From the NCBI RefSeq assembly GCF_000426625.1, contig NZ_KE384548.1, positions 806,001-870,000 on the forward strand: a stretch of 64,000 bases of DNA. Direction: 5' to 3'. This stretch comes from Psychrilyobacter atlanticus DSM 19335. GTDB lineage: Bacteria > Fusobacteriota > Fusobacteriia > Fusobacteriales > Fusobacteriaceae. This document shows, piece after piece, positions 2,793 to 53,371 of this stretch. The notes below the pieces were generated by a model. It was given only the letters and a program-made list of their open reading frames with translations. It was not told the DNA's origin and ran no database searches. Each line of letters opens with the position of its first letter. Position 1 is the stretch's first letter. The translations under genes and the position numbers were made by a program.

Positions 2793-2826
2793 AAAAAAAG
2801 AAGTATTAATTAATACTTCTTTTTTA
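2793..2826 (-). terminator. Terminator behind the integrase gene
   Basis: A perfect palindrome (AGAAGTATTAA with TTAATACTTCT) flanked by A and T runs ends within the integrase stop codon. It could work in both directions and would separate integrase transcription from the tRNA. Confidence 0.75.
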
Positions 2827-4239
2827 GTATTCTAAAACTATGTCATACTCAAAATTCTTCCTATTATTTATATTCTTTACCACTATCTCTTTTATTATCA
2901 TTCTTAGAAGTTCTCGGAGATCCATAATATCATAATTTTTATAGTTATTTGCAACTTCTACCAATATCTCAAAGTTTTCATCTGATCCATCTTCTTTCTT
3001 TCTCATAGTTTCTTCTATAACAGATATTTCCTTTATTACAATTTCTAAATCTTTACCTATTTTTTCTCTATTCTTAGTAAATTCAGATTCATCTATCAAC
3101 TCTTTCAAAAGTAGTGAAAGCAGCCTATCCTTTTCTTTTAATATACTGGCCCTTCTATTTTTATATACTTCTAAATTCTTTTCTAGCTCTAGACTATCCA
3201 AAGACACATCATTTATTTCTCTTAATTGTTCAAATTCTTTCAACCTTTCAAAGATCTCTCCCTCTATTATATCTGCGTCAATTTTCTTTTTACAATTGTC
3301 ACACTGATAACTCCTGTATAACCTATCATATTTTTTTACATAGTTTCCATTCCCATACATCTTTTTCATACAACTACATCTGATCAACCCTCCTAATATG
3401 AAATTAGATTTTTTTATGTTTTTTTTATTTAAAACACGATTCCCTTTTATATATAACTGTACCCTGTCGAACATTTCTTTGTCTATAATAGGTTCCTGGG
3501 TACCATCTACTAATAGATATTCTCCTTTTCTCTGCTTTTTTTTATTATGAAGATTATTTTTCCTTACACCAAATCTATATTTCCCTATATAAAAAGGATT
3601 CGTTAAGATCCACCTCATACTTTCTACAGATCTCCCGAACAAATCAGAAGTTTTTTTTAAGGATCGATTTCCTATAAAGGTCATAAAAAAGTTTCTTACC
3701 TGTCTTGCTCCTACTTCGTTTATAACAATATTCTTTTCTTCATCCCTCTTATATCCTATGGGAAGCTGCCCTGCCATCCAATGGCCTTTTTTAGCCCTCT
3801 CATATGCACTAGATTTTACTCTAGTTGATATTTGTTCCCTCTCATATTGGGCTAACCCAGCATTTATAGTGAAGAACAACCTTCCTGTGGATGTAGTAGT
3901 ATTAAGATCCGGCTGTGAGATTGAAACAAAATCCACATTTTTTTCTATTATATTTGAAATAAATGAAATCATTGTACTACTTTTTCTAGATATCCTGGAA
4001 GTTTCATAAACTAATAATATATCAATTCGCCCATTATCTATATCTCTTTGTAATTCCTTAAAACCTTTTCTTTCATCATCTCCTCCACTCCCAACATCTT
4101 CATAGATCATATGAAGATCATAATCATGAAGCTCACAAAATGATTCTATTTTTGATATCTGAGTCTTTAAGGAATCATTTTCTTCCTGCATACTGGTAGA
4201 AACTCTCACATAAGCTCCTACTTTCTTTTTACTTCTCAT
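2824..4239 (-). CDS. int: Large serine recombinase, prophage integrase
   Basis: Catalyses site-specific integration and, with a directionality factor, excision. The 471-aa protein starts with a resolvase/invertase catalytic domain (about 1-150) with nucleophile Ser14 in YVRVST and the arginine-rich ETSRISRKS and EREQISTR segments. A recombinase domain follows (about 160-280), then a zinc ribbon (Cys288, Cys290, Cys313, Cys316) and a coiled-coil region (about 330-420), the layout of large serine integrases. It sits 86 bases from attL. Targeting a tRNA 3' end is more usual for tyrosine integrases. A 22-codon reading frame overlaps its start and may couple its translation. Confidence 0.93.
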   Translation of the reverse strand: MRSKKKVGAYVRVSTSMQEENDSLKTQISKIESFCELHDYDLHMIYEDVGSGGDDERKGFKELQRDIDNGRIDILLVYETSRISRKSSTMISFISNIIEKNVDFVSISQPDLNTTTSTGRLFFTINAGLAQYEREQISTRVKSSAYERAKKGHWMAGQLPIGYKRDEEKNIVINEVGARQVRNFFMTFIGNRSLKKTSDLFGRSVESMRWILTNPFYIGKYRFGVRKNNLHNKKKQRKGEYLLVDGTQEPIIDKEMFDRVQLYIKGNRVLNKKNIKKSNFILGGLIRCSCMKKMYGNGNYVKKYDRLYRSYQCDNCKKKIDADIIEGEIFERLKEFEQLREINDVSLDSLELEKNLEVYKNRRASILKEKDRLLSLLLKELIDESEFTKNREKIGKDLEIVIKEISVIEETMRKKEDGSDENFEILVEVANNYKNYDIMDLRELLRMIIKEIVVKNINNRKNFEYDIVLEY

Positions 4240-44876: not shown

Positions 44877-45176
44877 TTGGAATACAATATTACATTAGAC
44901 TTAATAACATATATTATAGTCTTAATAGCATTCGGAACTATAGGAAGTTGTTACCAGGCATATAAAGACCAGGGAACTACTAAGCCATTTTGGGCTAGGG
45001 TTATATGCGGAGCATTTGCTGGATCAGTTACAATGCTTGTTGTGTTTATATTAGGACTAGAAGGAACTCAGGCTTTTATTCATTTTGGTATCGCAGCTCT
45101 TTTAGGTCTTCTATCTGAAAAAGGAGAAACACAAAAAATAGTAGATTTGATCTTTAACAGAGGAGGAAGAACATGA
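44877..45176 (+). CDS. Holin
   Basis: 99 aa with three hydrophobic segments (about 9-27, 42-62 and 67-82) and a charged C-terminus. TTG 44877 follows AGGAGGG. The size and the overlapping endolysin gene (four bases) fit a class I holin that permeabilises the inner membrane at lysis. Confidence 0.8.
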   Translation: MEYNITLDLITYIIVLIAFGTIGSCYQAYKDQGTTKPFWARVICGAFAGSVTMLVVFILGLEGTQAFIHFGIAALLGLLSEKGETQKIVDLIFNRGGRT

Positions 45177-45688
45177 AAATATCTAAACGAGGGATAGACC
45201 TTTTAAAGCATTTCGAGAGTTACGAAATGAAGGCATATAAGTGTCCTGCAGACGTTTGGACCATTGGTTGGGGATTTACTCGGGTTGATGGTGTAAAAGT
45301 CAAAGAAGACGATATTATGACCTCAGAAGAGGCCAATCTAGAACTAATAAAGCAACTAAGAACTTATGAGAATGTAGTTAAGAAAGCCATTATGATAAAA
45401 AAGATAAACCAGAACCAGTATGATGCCTTGGTCTCTCTTTGCTATAACATTGGAGGATCCAGTTTTAGGAGATCCGATATAGTTAAACTGGTCAATAATA
45501 GAAATTTTATAGGTGCATGTCGGATCTTTAATCTATGGTCCAAGGCAGCTAAAAAAAGATCCAAAGGATTATTGAGAAGAAGGATGGCAGAAAGGAATTT
45601 ATTCTGTAGTTGGCCAGACCCAATTGTAAAAGTTGTTCCTAAAAATTACCAGGAAACATTAGAGAACTATAAGGAGAGTGAAAAATGA
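45173..45688 (+). CDS. Endolysin, T4-lysozyme type (GH24)
   Basis: 171 aa muramidase. GIDLLKHFESYEMKAYKCPA has the catalytic Glu15, and DVWTIGWGFTRVDGVKV contains the GWG region of the active site. LVSLCYNIGG and RRMAERNLFCS are family features. No signal peptide is present, so release depends on the holin. It overlaps the flanking genes by four bases each. Confidence 0.92.
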   Translation: MKISKRGIDLLKHFESYEMKAYKCPADVWTIGWGFTRVDGVKVKEDDIMTSEEANLELIKQLRTYENVVKKAIMIKKINQNQYDALVSLCYNIGGSSFRRSDIVKLVNNRNFIGACRIFNLWSKAAKKRSKGLLRRRMAERNLFCSWPDPIVKVVPKNYQETLENYKESEK

Positions 45689-45987
45689 AAGAACTATTAG
45701 GAAATGCATTACTATGGCAGGTATTATTGGGGATTATATTATTAATCTTACCATCACCACTACTGAAGAAAGCAGGAGATCAGGTAGGAGATGCCATTGA
45801 AGGAGTAGGAGGAGAAAAAGCCAGGAATGTAGCTTACAAAATTCTTACTGACTTTGCTGAAGGATTAAAGAAATCTAAACATAATGGAGATATTAATTTA
45901 ACCTCTAATTATCAGATAGACAGTGAATTGGATAAATATAAGGTGTCATTGGGTTTGGAAGATTTAAAATCAAAGGTAAAGGATTAG
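45685..45987 (+). CDS. Small membrane protein in the lysis cassette
   Basis: 100 aa. One hydrophobic segment near the N-terminus (LLWQVLLGIILLILPSPLL) is followed by a soluble part. It may be a lysis accessory protein, an anti-holin or a spanin-like protein, but no lipobox or proline-rich region is seen. Its start overlaps the endolysin stop (ATGA). A terminator follows at 46095. Confidence 0.55.
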   Translation: MKELLGNALLWQVLLGIILLILPSPLLKKAGDQVGDAIEGVGGEKARNVAYKILTDFAEGLKKSKHNGDINLTSNYQIDSELDKYKVSLGLEDLKSKVKD

Positions 45988-46094
45988 AATTTAAGATAGA
46001 CCTAATTCATCATAAAACCAAGTTATTTCAGTTTAAGATTTTTAGGAGAGCTAATTCAATAAGAGAATTGTTTTGGAGATATAAAAGATAGATT

Positions 46095-46127
46095 AAAGGG
46101 ATATTAATTTATATCCCTTTTTTTTAA
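46095..46127 (+). terminator. Terminator of the late operon
   Basis: AAAGGGATAT (46095-46104) pairs with ATATCCCTTT (46111-46120) and is followed by a T run. It ends the morphogenesis and lysis genes. Confidence 0.85.
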
Positions 46128-46199: not shown

Positions 46200-46904
46200 A
46201 TGAATAAAATATTATTAATATTGATAATTAGTATCAGTTTAACGAGTTATGGGAAATCAATTAACATAGAGCAATTAGAAACACGAAACGGTATAGATTA
46301 TGAGATAAGTGAAGAAACTCCATACACAGGAACAGCTATTAGGTATTACGAAAATGGTCAAATCGAATTTAAATCAAATTATAAAAATGGATTAATAAAT
46401 GGAGAATGGGTTTTTTATTATGAAAATGGTCAAATTAAATTAAAAGGAACTTGTAAAGATGGGGTACTAAATGAACAACGAAATTATTACGCAACTGGAA
46501 AAATCAGAGATAAAAAAAATTATAAAGATGGAGAACTAAATGAATGGATTTTTTATTATGAAAATGGAAAAATTAAAAGAAAATGGAATTATAAAGATGG
46601 GGGAAAAAATAGGGAATCGATTTCTTATTACACAACTGGAAAAATCAAATCTAAATGGAATTATAAAGATGAGGAAATAAATGGGGAATCGATTTCTTAT
46701 TATGAAAATGGAAAAATCAAATCTAAAGAGAATTATAAAGATGGGAAAAAAAATGGGGAATCGATTTCTTATTATGAAACTGGAAAAATCGAATCTAAAG
46801 GGAATTATAAAGGTGGAGAAAAAAATGGGGAATATATTTTATATTACAGAACTGGAAAAATCAAATCTAAAGGGAATTATAAAGATGGGAAACGAATGAA
46901 CTAA
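46200..46904 (+). CDS. Secreted MORN-repeat protein
   Basis: 234 aa with a signal peptide (MNKILLILIISISLTSYGKS). From residue 49, eight MORN2-type repeats of 23-24 residues follow, such as YYENGKIKSKENYKDGKKNG. The protein ends at GKRMN, inside a repeat, which suggests that the last repeat was cut by a frameshift or unequal crossing-over. MORN2 proteins are expanded in fusobacteria. A similar domain appears in the host protein at 60279. AAGGAGGGGGAT precedes ATG. Confidence 0.82.
   Translation: MNKILLILIISISLTSYGKSINIEQLETRNGIDYEISEETPYTGTAIRYYENGQIEFKSNYKNGLINGEWVFYYENGQIKLKGTCKDGVLNEQRNYYATGKIRDKKNYKDGELNEWIFYYENGKIKRKWNYKDGGKNRESISYYTTGKIKSKWNYKDEEINGESISYYENGKIKSKENYKDGKKNGESISYYETGKIESKGNYKGGEKNGEYILYYRTGKIKSKGNYKDGKRMN
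46344..46901 (+). repeat. Tandem 69-72-bp repeats encoding MORN units
   Basis: About eight units. The last four are close at the DNA level (GGGGAATCGATTTCTTATTA recurs), showing recent expansion. Unit lengths are multiples of three, so copy number can change without a frameshift. Confidence 0.8.
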
Positions 46905-46939
46905 TATAAAAGTCATGAAAGTTCCGTAGGAAATGGTTT

Positions 46940-47026
46940 GGAACTTTCATTTGAAAGCTTAATAAAATCAATCTTAAAAGGACGCTGCAAATTTAGCGTT
47001 CTTTCGATTTAAATTGAAAATTTTAT
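46940..47026 (+). repeat. Cassette-end sequence, copy A (with terminator)
   Basis: GGAACTTTCATTTGAAAGCT leads into AATAAAATCAATCTTAAAAG and a hairpin (AAAGGACGCT/AGCGTTCTTT). Related copies are at 48299-48374 and 51887-51924. The 310 bases up to the next gene contain no reading frame of note. Confidence 0.75.
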
Positions 47027-48181: not shown

Positions 48182-48298
48182 TCAATAATATTAAAACAAT
48201 CTACATTTAAAAATTCTAGTATGGAGAAAGCGTTGTTCATAAATGTAAATTAGAAATTTATAATTAATAGCTAATGAACATTCCTAAATAATTCTTTC

Positions 48299-48374
48299 GG
48301 AACTTTCATAATTAACATCAATGAAATCAATCTTAAAAAGACACTAAATTTAGTGTCTTTTTATTTAAATTTTG
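48299..48374 (+). repeat. Cassette-end sequence, copy B (with terminator)
   Basis: Aligns with copy A over about 75 bases. The hairpin here is AAAAGACACT/AGTGTCTTTT. Two base pairs differ from copy A in both arms (G-C to A-T), so the stem is conserved by compensatory change. Confidence 0.75.
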
Positions 48375-48461: not shown

Positions 48462-48998
48462 CTATAGATCTTGGCGATAACCAAACTCACTCGATAGATT
48501 TTTTATTAATAATGAGTACTTCTCTATGATAACTTTCATCTCAGTCGGCACATTAGAAAATAATTTTTCCCAGCTTTCTTCCCAATTTGGAAGTGTCTTA
48601 AGTTGATACGTGTTAGTCTTTATTTTCGCATTAGACCCTACACCTGTATAGGTTTCAAAGGCTATATTCATAAATTCTGTATATGATAAGAAAGCACTAT
48701 CAGACCAATAAGGTCGACTTATATACATGTTCCGATCAATATCTCTTTTTTTCTCTATAATTTGATTTGGAGAAAATTCCTTCCAGTCTCCAACTTGCAG
48801 TAGATATACAAAAATATCGTTCAAATCCTTACCAATAGTTTCATATATATCTACACGTTTTTTAATAATACGGTCATTCAAACTGGCCCGTTTTTCATAG
48901 TTAATCGCAATGTTTTTTGCCCAAATTCCTAATAATAGAATTATTATAGGTGTGGCAAATGGCACAATAATATCAATAATAATTTTACTAATACTCAT
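48462..48998 (-). CDS. Single-span membrane protein of unknown function
   Basis: 178 aa. ATG 48998 follows AGGGAG at normal spacing; an earlier in-frame start at 49019 is less likely. One N-terminal transmembrane segment (IIIDIIVPFATPIIILLLGI) is followed by a helical cytosolic part (YEKRASLNDRIIKKRVDIYE). It is the only minus-strand gene in the right accessory block. No family is recognised; similar small anchored helical proteins occur in phage exclusion. Confidence 0.55.
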   Translation of the reverse strand: MSISKIIIDIIVPFATPIIILLLGIWAKNIAINYEKRASLNDRIIKKRVDIYETIGKDLNDIFVYLLQVGDWKEFSPNQIIEKKRDIDRNMYISRPYWSDSAFLSYTEFMNIAFETYTGVGSNAKIKTNTYQLKTLPNWEESWEKLFSNVPTEMKVIIEKYSLLIKNLSSEFGYRQDL

Positions 48999-49244
48999 AT
49001 TAATACTCCCTTTAGACATATTTTATTTCAAGACTTAACTTTCAAATATATCTTTCATTATAAATTTAACTTTGTCAAATAAACATATGAATTTTTGCTT
49101 GATATCCATAAACCTTATTTTATCCTCACTTTTTTTGAATTTATCCATAATTATTTGATTTTATATATATTTTAATGCAAACTTAAATAAGGGTAAATAA
49201 TTTTAAATGATAGAAAAAATACTATTATAAAAAGGAGGTTTTTT

Positions 49245-50225
49245 ATGGAAAAGAAATGGTGGTATGCACCGGATTCTTTTATTAACGAAGAATCCAATTT
49301 TCAAAGTACAACAAAACGATGTAGTGAAGATAATAAATTTAAAAATGCTCAAAAATTAAGAATTACTGTAGAAGGAGCTTGGATCCATGAAAATATGGAT
49401 CGGTTAATGTGGACTAAAACTAATGACCTCATTATTTTTAGTCAAATTGGATACGGCAGTAAACCCCCAATAAAAAAAGTTCATTTCTATGAAAAAAACG
49501 TGAAAGAAAAGAAATGGATTCCCATCGTATTTCATCCTGATATTTATGCAACCTCTGATTTTAATGAATCAATAGAAGAAATAAATATAGGAATATTTGT
49601 CTATGATGAAGACGGATTAAATAAAAGTAAAGCTAGTGAGCTTTCTTCAAACTTTGCTTCCGCAGCTTCCATAGCAGCTATTGCCTTTCCTGTGCTCTTA
49701 CCTTATTCGCCTCTAATATCTAGTGTAGGGAAATCCTTAATAGGGATAATTAGTAATATGGATGACCATGATGAAATAATCAATGGAAATATAAGGTTAG
49801 CAGTTAATAAATCCTCTGATGAGGCCTACAATTTATTACAACCTGGATTTTTTGTTTGTTTTGCAGAACCAGTAGAGATAAAAAATTTAATTCTCAAAGA
49901 AGATAAGAAAGTTTATACAAAAAAAGGAGATCTGTACACTCATAATTCATATATTGTATTACGAGTAACTAAAGATACTTCAATTTCCTCTGAGTTTCTT
50001 ATTAATCAACGAATGGCAACACTCTTATCTGAACTTGAAAAAGGGAAGGGTGAAAATTCTATTCAAGCTTTAGATTTTCTTCAGGATACAATGAGTTCTT
50101 ATTCACTAATGAAAAAATTAAAACGTTATAAGGAACTCAAAAAAAAATCTATCCGTACAGAGGACGAAGAAAATCTATATCATGAATTAAGTAATGATGA
50201 TGAATTATCTGAATATTATTTGTAA
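49245..50225 (+). CDS. Unknown protein with a hydrophobic central hairpin
   Basis: 326 aa. The N-terminal half is beta-rich (LRITVEGAWIHENMDRL). The centre (about 135-175: ASAASIAAIAFPVLLPYSPL then SSVGKSLIGIISNM) is a long hydrophobic stretch like the membrane-inserting helix of a pore-former. The tail is acidic helix. AAAAGGAGG precedes the ATG. It lies 19 bases before the amidase-like gene, so they form a pair. Function is not recognised. Confidence 0.6.
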   Translation: MEKKWWYAPDSFINEESNFQSTTKRCSEDNKFKNAQKLRITVEGAWIHENMDRLMWTKTNDLIIFSQIGYGSKPPIKKVHFYEKNVKEKKWIPIVFHPDIYATSDFNESIEEINIGIFVYDEDGLNKSKASELSSNFASAASIAAIAFPVLLPYSPLISSVGKSLIGIISNMDDHDEIINGNIRLAVNKSSDEAYNLLQPGFFVCFAEPVEIKNLILKEDKKVYTKKGDLYTHNSYIVLRVTKDTSISSEFLINQRMATLLSELEKGKGENSIQALDFLQDTMSSYSLMKKLKRYKELKKKSIRTEDEENLYHELSNDDELSEYYL

Positions 50226-50244
50226 AACAAAAGGAGGGCAAAAA

Positions 50245-50841
50245 ATGAAATATAATGATTTGAAAAAACTAAAACTTAGTCCAGAAATTTGGACATTAAT
50301 CCAAAAAGGGTTGAATCATGCTGGATTTTATAACGGAACTTATTTTGGAAAACCTGGTCCTAAAACAGAAAAAGCTTACAATGCTTATATTAATAATGAT
50401 GTTAGCGAACCAAAATGGATGTCTGTAGCAAGAAACGAAATAGGAGTTAAAGATTATTCTGGCAGTGCTGATAATCCTGATGTTCTTAAATATCTTAAAA
50501 GTGTTGATACTCTCAGTGTGAGTGCTCAAAGGAGAGATGAAACTGCTTGGTGTAGTGCTTTTGTTAACTGGTGTATGGAAGAAGTTGGGATAAAGGGAAC
50601 AGAAAAAGCTAATGCTAGATCTTGGCTTAAATGGGGTAAAAAATTAGAAGTTCCTAAAATAGGTTGTGTTACTATTCTGTGGAGAGGAGACCCTAAAGGA
50701 TGGCAAGGACATGTTGGATTTTTTATAAAAGAAACTACTTCACATGTATATCTATTAGGCGGAAATCAAAGTGATGAAGTAAAAATTAAAAGATATCCTA
50801 AAGAGCGTATTCTAGGATATAGGGATATATCCCAAGTGTAA
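50245..50841 (+). CDS. TIGR02594-type peptidoglycan amidase (CHAP-like)
   Basis: 198 aa. A short peptidoglycan-binding-like start (GLNHAGFYNGTYFGKPGPKT) is followed by a cysteine peptidase/amidase: AWCSAFVNWCMEEVGIKGT with the catalytic Cys and GHVGFFIKETTSHVYLLGGN with the His. The frame is open upstream, but AAAGGAGG directly precedes ATG 50245. It has no signal peptide, so it needs help to reach the wall; the upstream pore-like protein could provide this. It is separate from the lysis cassette. Confidence 0.8.
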   Translation: MKYNDLKKLKLSPEIWTLIQKGLNHAGFYNGTYFGKPGPKTEKAYNAYINNDVSEPKWMSVARNEIGVKDYSGSADNPDVLKYLKSVDTLSVSAQRRDETAWCSAFVNWCMEEVGIKGTEKANARSWLKWGKKLEVPKIGCVTILWRGDPKGWQGHVGFFIKETTSHVYLLGGNQSDEVKIKRYPKERILGYRDISQV

Positions 50842-50969
50842 TTCTATGAGTAGAAAAAACCTTATCTAATACAAACCACAGGGACTAATATCTAGTAAAA
50901 AAACTAAATTTAATAAGGTATGCTTTCGCCAATATATAAATATTAACTGAGCTTAGGAGGAAGATGATT

Positions 50970-51824
50970 ATGGATAAGTTAAGTCCGGACACAAAATCAA
51001 AAAATACGGTTAATACAGAATTAACTAGAGAAGAAGTTGAACAGCTTCACCAAATAAAGCTCCTCGAAGAAATAAAGCGGGAATTAATTGTATGGGCCAA
51101 GCGTCAAGTATGGTTATTTTTAATTGTGATATCTATTTTAGTCGCTTTTGGTATTCATCAGACTATTGATATTTTAGTTGATCGTAAAATAAAACAGAAT
51201 ATAGCTGAGAAAGAAGCAATTATTACGCATAGTTTAGACATTATGCACGACGCTACTGTTGAAGGGACTGTTGAAGCAAAGAGAATCAAGGCTACACTAT
51301 TCAGTTTGGAAGAGATGAGATCCAGTGCTCAAGAAAGTTTAGATTTATTAAAAATAGAGGCTAATCAACTTCAAAAAGATTTTGCAAATATTAATGCAAA
51401 CATCAATAGCCTACGGGAAGGACTTAAGAAGAATACTGAAAATTTACAGATTCAAATAGGAGGGATAGCTTCTAAAACCAGCGTTGATATTTCTTCCTCA
51501 AAACAAAAAATTTTAAATTTTGAAGCTAATTCAGAATATACTGTATTGGTGTTTTATACACTTTCTCAGAAGGTTATAGCTAATGATCTTAAAGAGAGTC
51601 TTCTATCCGAAGGGTATCGTTCTTCTAGTACTGCCACAGATTTTTCAGAGCTTTCAAAGGTGTATTCATCTGGAACTATCTCTATAAATTATACAAATCG
51701 AGGAACTAATGTAGTAGAGAAGATTGAAGAAATGCTGACTAAAAAGGGTCTATCAGGCTCTTTCAAGATTCAAAAAAGTATTACTCCATTACGACGCGGC
51801 GATGTGCAAATTTTAATCTTCTGA
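50970..51824 (+). CDS. Membrane-anchored coiled-coil protein
   Basis: 284 aa. A charged N-terminus is followed by one transmembrane span (VWLFLIVISILVAFGIHQTI, about 48-67). A long coiled coil follows (about 95-175) and a C-terminal alpha/beta domain (about 190-284: YTVLVFYTLSQKVIANDLKE, LRRGDVQILIF) that resembles LytR_C or SPOR-like folds. ATG 50970 has better spacing from GGAGG than 50964. It may form a unit with the preceding pore-like and amidase genes. Confidence 0.6.
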   Translation: MDKLSPDTKSKNTVNTELTREEVEQLHQIKLLEEIKRELIVWAKRQVWLFLIVISILVAFGIHQTIDILVDRKIKQNIAEKEAIITHSLDIMHDATVEGTVEAKRIKATLFSLEEMRSSAQESLDLLKIEANQLQKDFANINANINSLREGLKKNTENLQIQIGGIASKTSVDISSSKQKILNFEANSEYTVLVFYTLSQKVIANDLKESLLSEGYRSSSTATDFSELSKVYSSGTISINYTNRGTNVVEKIEEMLTKKGLSGSFKIQKSITPLRRGDVQILIF

Positions 51825-51886
51825 TACGAATAATTACACATGGCACTTATAATATTAGCTAGAATGTATTTAATATTATTTTTTTT

Positions 51887-51924
51887 AACTTTTATTTGAA
51901 AGGCTAATAAAATCAACTTTAAAA
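51887..51924 (+). repeat. Cassette-end sequence, copy C
   Basis: AACTTTTATTTGAAAGGCTA leads into ATAAAATCAACTTTAAAAG, matching the first half of copy A; the hairpin part is lost. It is followed by GCAAGCTTAAATAAG, which recurs as GCAAACTTAAATAAG before 49245. The stretch 51825-52111 contains no gene. Confidence 0.65.
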
Positions 51925-52111
51925 GAATATTGATTTTAAGGCAAGCTTAAATAAGACTCTTCTAAAGATAATCAATATTTAGGTTTGTTTTTCTAAAAAG
52001 TTATGAATTTTTATCATAGAATATATGTAAGAAAGTTAGGGAGAATATATACTTATTTAATATCTGAATATAAAATAATTTTTTAAATAAACTTAAAAAA
52101 GGAGGAGAACT

Positions 52112-52897
52112 ATGAAAGCAGAAAGTATAAAAGAATTAAAATATTACAAGAATAAAAACTCTAAAGCTTTAACAATTTTGGCAGAAGGCGATTCTTGGTT
52201 TGATTATCCTAGAAATATGTTTTTTCTAGGTCCAGATGCTAATATAATCGATCATCTTTATGATAAAAAAGATTTAATCATCTATAATATGGCTAGTAAT
52301 GGAGATGAAGCTGTCGAGATGCTTTCTGGAGAAAATAAATTTAAATTAATTAAAGCATTAGAAAGCTATAAATTTGATATATTACTTTTTTCTGGTGGCG
52401 GAAATGATATTGTAGGAGGTTATGATTTTAATTTTATTTTAAATGAAAAAAAAGACAGTATGAAATGGAAAGATTGCATTAACTTAGAAAGATTAGAAAT
52501 TAAAATAGATCAAATTAAAAGCTCGTATAAATTTTTATGTGAGATAGCAAAGGATTATCCAAATATAAAAATAGTTTCTCACACTTATGATTTATGTCCT
52601 CCAAGTAAAACTGGTTTTAAACCAATAAAATTTTTACCTACCACTTTTGGAGATGGATGGTTAAAAGTTTATTTAACAGAAAAAAAAATTTATAATTATG
52701 ATGATCAAAAAAATATTATAGATTACATTTTGAAAGCTTTAAGAGAAATTCTAATTGAAATTGATAAAAAATATGATAATTTTACAGTTGTCGACACTCA
52801 AGGAACATTAGGTGATAAACATTGGAGAGACGAATTACATCCTAATTCAGTGGGATTTGAATTAATTTCACAAAAAATATATAAAGCTTTGGTTTAG
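52112..52897 (+). CDS. SGNH/GDSL-type hydrolase
   Basis: 261 aa without a signal peptide. The SGNH blocks are AEGDSWFDYPR (nucleophile Ser), NMASNGDEAVEM, SGGGNDIVGG (Asn) and DELHPNSVGF (Asp/His). The enzyme family cleaves esters of lipids, sugars or nucleosides. GDSWFDYP-type members often occur as cargo in mobile elements and immunity loci. The substrate is unknown. AAAAGGAGGAG precedes ATG. It is the last gene before attR. Confidence 0.82.
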   Translation: MKAESIKELKYYKNKNSKALTILAEGDSWFDYPRNMFFLGPDANIIDHLYDKKDLIIYNMASNGDEAVEMLSGENKFKLIKALESYKFDILLFSGGGNDIVGGYDFNFILNEKKDSMKWKDCINLERLEIKIDQIKSSYKFLCEIAKDYPNIKIVSHTYDLCPPSKTGFKPIKFLPTTFGDGWLKVYLTEKKIYNYDDQKNIIDYILKALREILIEIDKKYDNFTVVDTQGTLGDKHWRDELHPNSVGFELISQKIYKALV

Positions 52898-53026: not shown

Positions 53027-53038
53027 CTCAGGTACCAT
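53027..53038 (+). repeat. attR core: 12-bp direct repeat with attL
   Basis: CTCAGGTACCAT repeats the 3' end of tRNA-Leu. TTAGAGG at 53004-53010, on the phage side, could pair as an arm with CCTCTA at 2745-2750 in a reconstructed attP. The rest of 52898-53371 holds only a small hairpin, the terminator at 53078 and no convincing gene. Confidence 0.8.
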
Positions 53039-53077
53039 GTCGAACCTTAAGTTTTTACGAAAACTTTATACTATATA

Positions 53078-53108
53078 AAAAGAGGAGTGCTTCGGTACTC
53101 CTCTTTTT
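53078..53108 (+). terminator. Probable original tRNA-Leu terminator, displaced by the prophage
   Basis: AAAAAGAGGAGT and ACTCCTCTTTTT pair around GCTTCGGT. It is 40 bases past the attR core, where the tRNA transcript would have ended before integration. Confidence 0.8.
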
Positions 53109-53371
53109 ATTGCTACAGCATAATCTCATACTTATCCCCTCTTAAAATAAAAAAAGAATGGAGTTTAACTTCCACCCTTTCAAAACCTTTATTCAACTCA
53201 ATATTCTATTTTATTCATACTATCAGCATAAATTACCCTTCCCAGATTCTTTATTTTAAATGTAGCATATTATTCACCCCAAAACAAGAGATCCTCATCT
53301 ATTAAGTTTTGTTTTAATGAAATAAAAATTATGATAAGATCTAATAAATAATAAAATAAAAGGTGGATAGA

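Follow-up and report, generated by a model that had tools for sequence, protein, structure and literature searches.

The prophage and its variable right end

Three open reading frames on the forward strand, gene 1 (49245-50225), gene 2 (50245-50841) and gene 3 (50964-51824), are followed by a GDSL/SGNH hydrolase gene (52112-52897, same strand) in the window, i.e., the whole stretch of 64,000 nucleotides analysed here, which belongs to contig C3 of a host genome of 3.54 Mb; kin groups and prophage context suggest a marine member of the Fusobacteriota, possibly Psychrilyobacter. An earlier, sequence-only reading had proposed the first three as an envelope effector system lying apart from the lysis cassette. 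The three frames and their common direction are confirmed; the GDSL gene and the status of all four genes as prophage cargo were absent from that reading.

The region is contained in a contractile-tailed prophage, whose recognisable proteins include a terminase, a tail sheath, a tape measure, a repressor of the S24 type and a serine integrase. The prophage occupies approximately positions 2727-53038 (50.3 kb) and includes genes 1-3 at its right end, as is evident from the 12-bp core CTCAGGTACCAT present at both ends and from a core and right flank shared with a related prophage. The left core (2727-2738) coincides with the 3' end of a tRNA-Leu gene and the right core lies at 53027-53038; exactly two copies occur in the window, where none is expected by chance. 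The serine integrase gene (2824-4239, reverse strand; phrog_95, 3.8e-96) encodes Resolvase and Recombinase domains and adjoins the left core. In the sister genome G007, a related prophage terminates in the identical core and is followed by the matching right flank (85% over 53027-53252), and the tRNA-Leu of that genome has TCAGGTACCA of the 12-bp core. The IMG/VR prophage UViG 2524614854_000003 represents the same sequence, its stored end being the end of the GDSL gene. A locus of G007 (L136) was considered as an empty attachment site and set aside as not simple, since there the tRNA is separated from another integrase by a GNAT gene; the prophage boundaries are therefore based on the core and the shared right flank. 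The GNAT gene is placed between tRNA-Leu and the prophage integrase in G007 (L136, L156) but beyond attR in the window, a difference that reads as an attachment site rearranged or used twice.

The phage's own lysis module is located at 44877-45987 (forward strand) and comprises a holin-like protein of 99 aa (from 44877), a phage lysozyme of 171 aa (from 45173; Phage_lysozyme 2.8e-36, phrog_7) and a hydrophobic protein of 100 aa (from 45685), which places the trio outside the lysis cassette, as had been proposed. Five related prophage ends of the genus were compared, one of which lies in this genome too (C3:209-221 kb). The lysis module is kept among them, and DNA similarity ends near 46085-46125 or earlier. 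Beyond approximately 46125 matches are confined to short intergenic segments and, for G007, a MORN stretch, and the cargo differs in each of the five. The zone between the lysis genes and attR, in which genes 1-3 and the GDSL gene are situated, is a variable cargo zone. No trace of gene 2 was found in the five related prophages. Likewise, in a search of 98 Fusobacteriota genomes, genes 1 and 3 and any TIGR02594 gene of the gene 2 type were confined to this genome, the remaining TIGR02594 matches being mostly domains within proteins of approximately 800-1400 aa. The seven other genomes of the genus lack the GDSL gene.

Other elements of this zone deserve mention. A MORN-repeat protein is encoded at 46200-46904 with eight units of approximately 72 nt, and the G007 prophage has a shorter MORN gene in its own cargo zone. 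A 44-nt intergenic repeat (approximately AACTTTCATTTGAAAG..TAATAAAATCAATCTTAAAAG) is found at 46937-46980, 48296-48339 and 51882-51925, i.e., after the MORN gene, a gene for a 321-aa membrane protein and gene 3, respectively, with further copies elsewhere in the host genome and in three more genomes of the genus; it may be linked to terminators and help to shuffle cargo. A divergent gene (48462-49019, reverse strand; 185 aa) is separated from gene 1 by 225 bp of intergenic DNA that the two share. Its product displays one TM helix (KD 2.55) and a cytosolic domain, has remote relatives in Burkholderia replicons (25-27% identity) and is a possible regulator or immunity protein.

Genes 1 to 3

The best start of gene 2 is the ATG after AAAGGAGG at 50245, which yields a protein of 198 aa; a longer start at 50194 would overlap gene 1. 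The protein matches TIGR02594 (6.7e-37, 126.8 bits, curated cut-off 70.55) and CHAP (9.5e-7), and Cys105, His158 and Asn176 (numbered on the 200-aa translation from 50239) are invariant in eight aligned sequences. An N-terminal fragment weakly resembles PG_binding_1 (0.0021, sub-threshold), and the N-terminus is not hydrophobic. The prediction of a TIGR02594/CHAP peptidoglycan hydrolase is sound, and the earlier recognition of the middle frame as a TIGR02594 enzyme devoid of a signal peptide is upheld.

The closest relative of gene 2 derives from a Desulfobacteraceae MAG and is 67% identical over nearly the whole length, with an N-terminus common to both. Relatives occur as baseplate lysozymes, as endolysins beside holins, as T6SS-linked effectors or as solitary genes. 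A hydrophobic N-terminus was found in none of 73 viral and in one of 57 genomic relatives. Judged from these proteins, the absence of a signal peptide appears to be the rule for the TIGR02594 family, so that this absence alone is no reason to postulate a pore. Two settings of wall hydrolases are described here in their own right. In Tenacibaculum (L051, L053, L088, L102, L106), the TIGR02594 gene is preceded by a conserved set of three consecutive genes that begins with one for a DUF2589 protein. In locus L067 (5483-8722), a lysozyme-LysM-CHAP protein of 688 aa is encoded directly upstream of a TIR-domain gene, which again hints at a place of wall hydrolases in conflict loci.

The T6SS-linked relatives raise the question of whether gene 2 is directed against other cells, as a delivered effector such as T6SS cargo, with a neighbouring gene for an immunity protein. 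In Burkholderia and Stenotrophomonas, effectors of the TIGR02594 family are associated with VgrG (L008; PMC13055248, PMC13340143), but gene 2 sits in prophage cargo and has no VgrG, PAAR or RHS gene beside it, and we consider such a role highly improbable.

The phage relatives suggest a different role, in which gene 2 serves its own phage as an accessory endolysin, expressed late, released by the holin and aiding the lysozyme at 45173, while genes 1 and 3 and the GDSL gene are unrelated cargo. TIGR02594 endolysins adjoin holins in Pseudomonas phage 73 and Stenotrophomonas DLP_2, a small TM protein lies beside 30 of the 73 viral relatives of gene 2, and the presence of a holin removes the need for a signal peptide. 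However, gene 2 is located more than 4 kb downstream of the lysis module, past other cargo and a terminator-like site (48334-48363), it is untraceable in the five related prophages, no holin adjoins it, and it is closely coupled to gene 1. We regard an accessory endolysin as rather unlikely on balance.

Gene 1 encodes an orphan protein of 326 aa with a probably helical C-terminus. It has one moderately hydrophobic stretch (residues 137-170), whose best segment (residues 140-158) reaches a KD of 1.75 and is no more hydrophobic than the 1.74 of a soluble prismane enzyme encoded in the same window. No family was found in profile searches (including Pfam, PADLOC and phrog sets), and no known pore-former profile matched. 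The AlphaFold2 single-sequence model has a mean pLDDT of 38 and is too poor for interpretation; a fold search returned only common helical arrangements. The description of gene 1 as pore-like is consequently not borne out. A match of its C-terminus to RsbU_N (19.9 bits) was rejected, as it falls under the cut-off of 25.5.

Gene 3 encodes 286 aa with an N-terminal membrane anchor, formed by a single strong TM helix (residues 50-68, KD 2.12), a predicted long coiled coil and a C-terminal domain, in agreement with the earlier reading of a membrane coiled-coil protein. The single-sequence AlphaFold2 model displays helices at residues 22-171 and a mixed C-terminus at low confidence (pLDDT 56), and the fold search based on it returned only common helical arrangements. 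A PADLOC match to ZorB (E 0.0076) covers residues 50-203 only, i.e., the TM helix, the coil and the start of the C-terminus, and was rejected; it is weak, it is the only PADLOC match among the six cargo proteins, and no other Zorya protein is present among them. A resemblance of the C-terminus to SPOR or LytR_C, seen by eye, was likewise dismissed, with no match in Pfam or PDB. Neither gene 1 nor gene 3 matched a holin in the profile search.

No relatives of gene 1 or gene 3 were detected in 72,556 plasmids, 50,697 phage records, IMG/VR (pattern-based) or 389 genomes. For gene 1 the same applies to 40 genomes holding relatives of gene 2, to 369 genomes of the Psychromonas class and to a scan of GTDB contigs, which is pattern-based and finds close relatives only. 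Weak matches of gene 1 in G075, G066, G073, G059 and G369 were judged to be chance: they comprise stop-riddled stretches and two proteins that resemble, by eye, MoeA and glutamyl-tRNA reductase, respectively.

The gap of 19 bp between genes 1 and 2 and the absence of a predicted plus-strand terminator from the end of gene 1 to gene 3 make a single transcript of genes 1-3 plausible. A structured element between genes 2 and 3 was considered and discarded, its folding being no better than that of shuffled sequences.

The question of whether the trio is conserved receives a divided answer. Among 160 loci of gene 2 relatives (80 genomic and 80 viral, including that of the 67% identical Desulfobacteraceae relative), not one has a neighbour resembling gene 1 or gene 3. 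For gene 2 this is the independent occurrence in relatives by which the earlier reading would be refuted in its own terms. As gene 2 travels alone and genes 1 and 3 are orphans, the trio does not appear to be a conserved unit; joint or separate travel of genes 1 and 3 cannot be shown, as they have no detectable relatives. These observations bear on the model in which a pore made by gene 1 lets gene 2 through to the wall and gene 3 regulates or anchors it, the three constituting an altruistic-lysis system. Co-directional genes, the tight linkage of genes 1 and 2, one membrane protein and an amidase-type enzyme lacking a signal peptide are in its favour, but given a gene 1 without pore signature, a trio that is not conserved and a signal-peptide absence that is general in the TIGR02594 family, the pore as a route for the amidase is unsupported and the model as a whole very unlikely.

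The GDSL esterase and its relatives

The GDSL/SGNH hydrolase gene is the last gene before attR. Its product matches Lipase_GDSL (PF00657; 6e-6, 27 bits, cut-off 23.6) and carries the motifs EGDSW, G64, GGGND and DELHP, of which S28, G64, N98 and H243 are invariant in 12 relatives, while D240 is replaced by Asn in some. The gene starts 287 bp after gene 3, with a genus-wide repeat in between, and 1.27 kb after the end of gene 2. It has a third-position GC of 0.145, the lowest of the four genes (0.16-0.25 in the others).

Relatives of this protein were found on plasmids in 36 cases, repeatedly in the company of enzymes acting on the wall. Fusions of GDSL with Amidase_3 and M15 domains are present in R. 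etli and S. meliloti, and a GDSL-Amidase_3-M74-S8 fusion in Rhizobium TH2; others are GDSL-caspase and trypsin-GDSL proteins. Further relatives adjoin genes for CHAP, cell-wall hydrolase, GH19, amidase or murein endopeptidase. At L255, L259, L261 and L262 a homologue of gene 2 is located in the same locus, within approximately 6 kb, and in L261 and L262 the order is TIGR02594 - X - GDSL, which matches the order gene 2 - gene 3 - GDSL in the window. The two such arrangements are those of S. meliloti M162, annotated as TIGR02594 - C1-type peptidase - GDSL-caspase, and of Rhizobium CC1099, where the gene sizes and order are the same. At least three TIGR02594 places were seen within 6 kb of the 36 GDSL places against approximately 0.014 expected under a naive uniform model, a probability not to be taken literally, because the loci are interrelated and three of the four were opened on account of both matches being already known to lie near each other; moreover, this pairing is shown only for Rhizobiaceae plasmids and its cases are not independent. 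As no obvious wall hydrolase is located near the GDSL genes of L258 and L260, the pairing of GDSL and wall hydrolase appears to be frequent, not universal. A clear hydrophobic N-terminus is present in none of the 12 GDSL relatives and four TIGR02594 neighbours inspected. Conversely, this GDSL protein was found in none of the 160 TIGR02594 loci from genomes and viral contigs.

The pairing has consequences for a reading of the cargo genes as independent morons, collected by chance at the prophage end and not working together. We judge this unlikely, though several points favour it: the cargo of the related prophages is wholly different, the relatives of gene 2 are usually solitary or in other settings, and composition changes from gene to gene. 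Genes 1 and 2, however, are only 19 bp apart, and the association of GDSL esterases with wall hydrolases recurs elsewhere. Because of the GDSL neighbour, the stretch is still plausible as envelope-effector cargo; of the earlier proposal of an envelope effector set separate from the lysis cassette, the effector character is strengthened by the adjacent esterase, and the trio as its unit is not established.

A putative envelope-hydrolase cargo and its known counterparts

We favour the interpretation that 49245-52897 is a prophage cargo block encoding a cytosolic envelope-hydrolase kit for the lysis of an attacked lysogen, to which we assign a probability of roughly 0.4. It is supported by the cargo position, the intact TIGR02594 and GDSL motifs and the recurrent pairing of GDSL proteins with wall hydrolases. 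The core of the kit would be a pair of unsecreted envelope hydrolases, the TIGR02594 peptidoglycan hydrolase of gene 2 and the GDSL/SGNH esterase, the latter probably directed against membrane lipid or O-acetyl groups of the wall. Gene 3 would contribute a coiled-coil partner anchored in the membrane, whereas gene 1 is an orphan. Both enzymes would be stored in the cytoplasm until the inner membrane is breached, be it by the holin of a competing phage, by membrane damage or by triggered genes 1 and 3, which may supply membrane access or sensing. After such a breach the enzymes would meet the wall and the cell would lyse before the cycle of the invader is completed. The benefit of the cargo would accordingly be abortive or competitive lysis, i.e., host suicide, which we consider its probable function. 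Against the kit count the demonstration of the pairing in Rhizobiaceae plasmids only, the absence of this GDSL protein from the 160 TIGR02594 loci, a cargo in which neither protease nor NTPase nor sensor was recognised, the low third-position GC of the GDSL gene, the PADLOC result with its single weak ZorB match, and the distance of 287 bp with the intervening repeat, by which the GDSL gene may be a separate unit.

A more specific version, in which genes 1, 2, 3 and GDSL form a compact phage-borne death device and the two new proteins release the unsecreted enzymes onto the wall upon infection, is distinctly doubtful. If true, the device would be a reduced relative of the GDSL/amidase/caspase clusters that are coupled to proteases in Alphaproteobacteria, and wall hydrolysis would be the killing step of an abortive-infection system. 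The effectors of abortive infection mostly target nucleic acids, NAD, protein synthesis or the inner membrane; intracellular wall hydrolases have, to our knowledge, been proposed as effectors and little tested. A prophage cargo of four genes with the recurrent GDSL and wall-hydrolase pairing, free of proteases, provides a small, clonable test case.

Among known systems, the TIGR02594/CHAP (NlpC/P60-like) hydrolases of phages and T6SS resemble gene 2 in domain, catalytic residues and lack of a signal peptide, with approximately 45% identity to phage baseplate lysozymes. Gene 2 differs from them as a free-standing protein of 198 aa with a weak PG-binding-like N-terminus, carried as prophage cargo. 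The canonical holin-endolysin module likewise combines a wall hydrolase devoid of a signal peptide with nearby membrane proteins, but gene 2 is separate from the phage's own module and has no recognisable holin.

The rhizobial clusters (S. meliloti pSymA M162, Rhizobium CC1099, R. etli IE4803) contain the same GDSL subfamily (EGDSW, GGGND, ELH), near or fused to wall hydrolases and with no clear signal peptides; in two clusters the genes are arranged as TIGR02594 - X - GDSL. They carry proteases (caspase, C1, trypsin, S8), whereas the window has genes 1 and 3 instead; a Pfam scan of the cargo proteins revealed no protease domain (caspase, trypsin, S8, C1, C25), and the cargo of the window showed no recognisable protease, NTPase or sensor. 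Peptidoglycan-attacking effectors alongside proteolytic activation have been proposed for conflict systems of Alphaproteobacteria (Kaur et al. 2020, PMC7159879). The Peptidase-NucA conflict systems (system 3, PMC7159879), defined by a core of NucA endonuclease and trypsin (PMC7159879), are similar in their peptidoglycan-attacking effectors and differ in the NucA nuclease, trypsin, EAD1 and STAND protein, none of which was recognised in the cargo of the window. A dense wall-hydrolase operon is found on a Geminocystis plasmid (L265, 1468-7431), where a trypsin-GDSL fusion is followed by genes for GH19, TPR, amidase and murein endopeptidase proteins.
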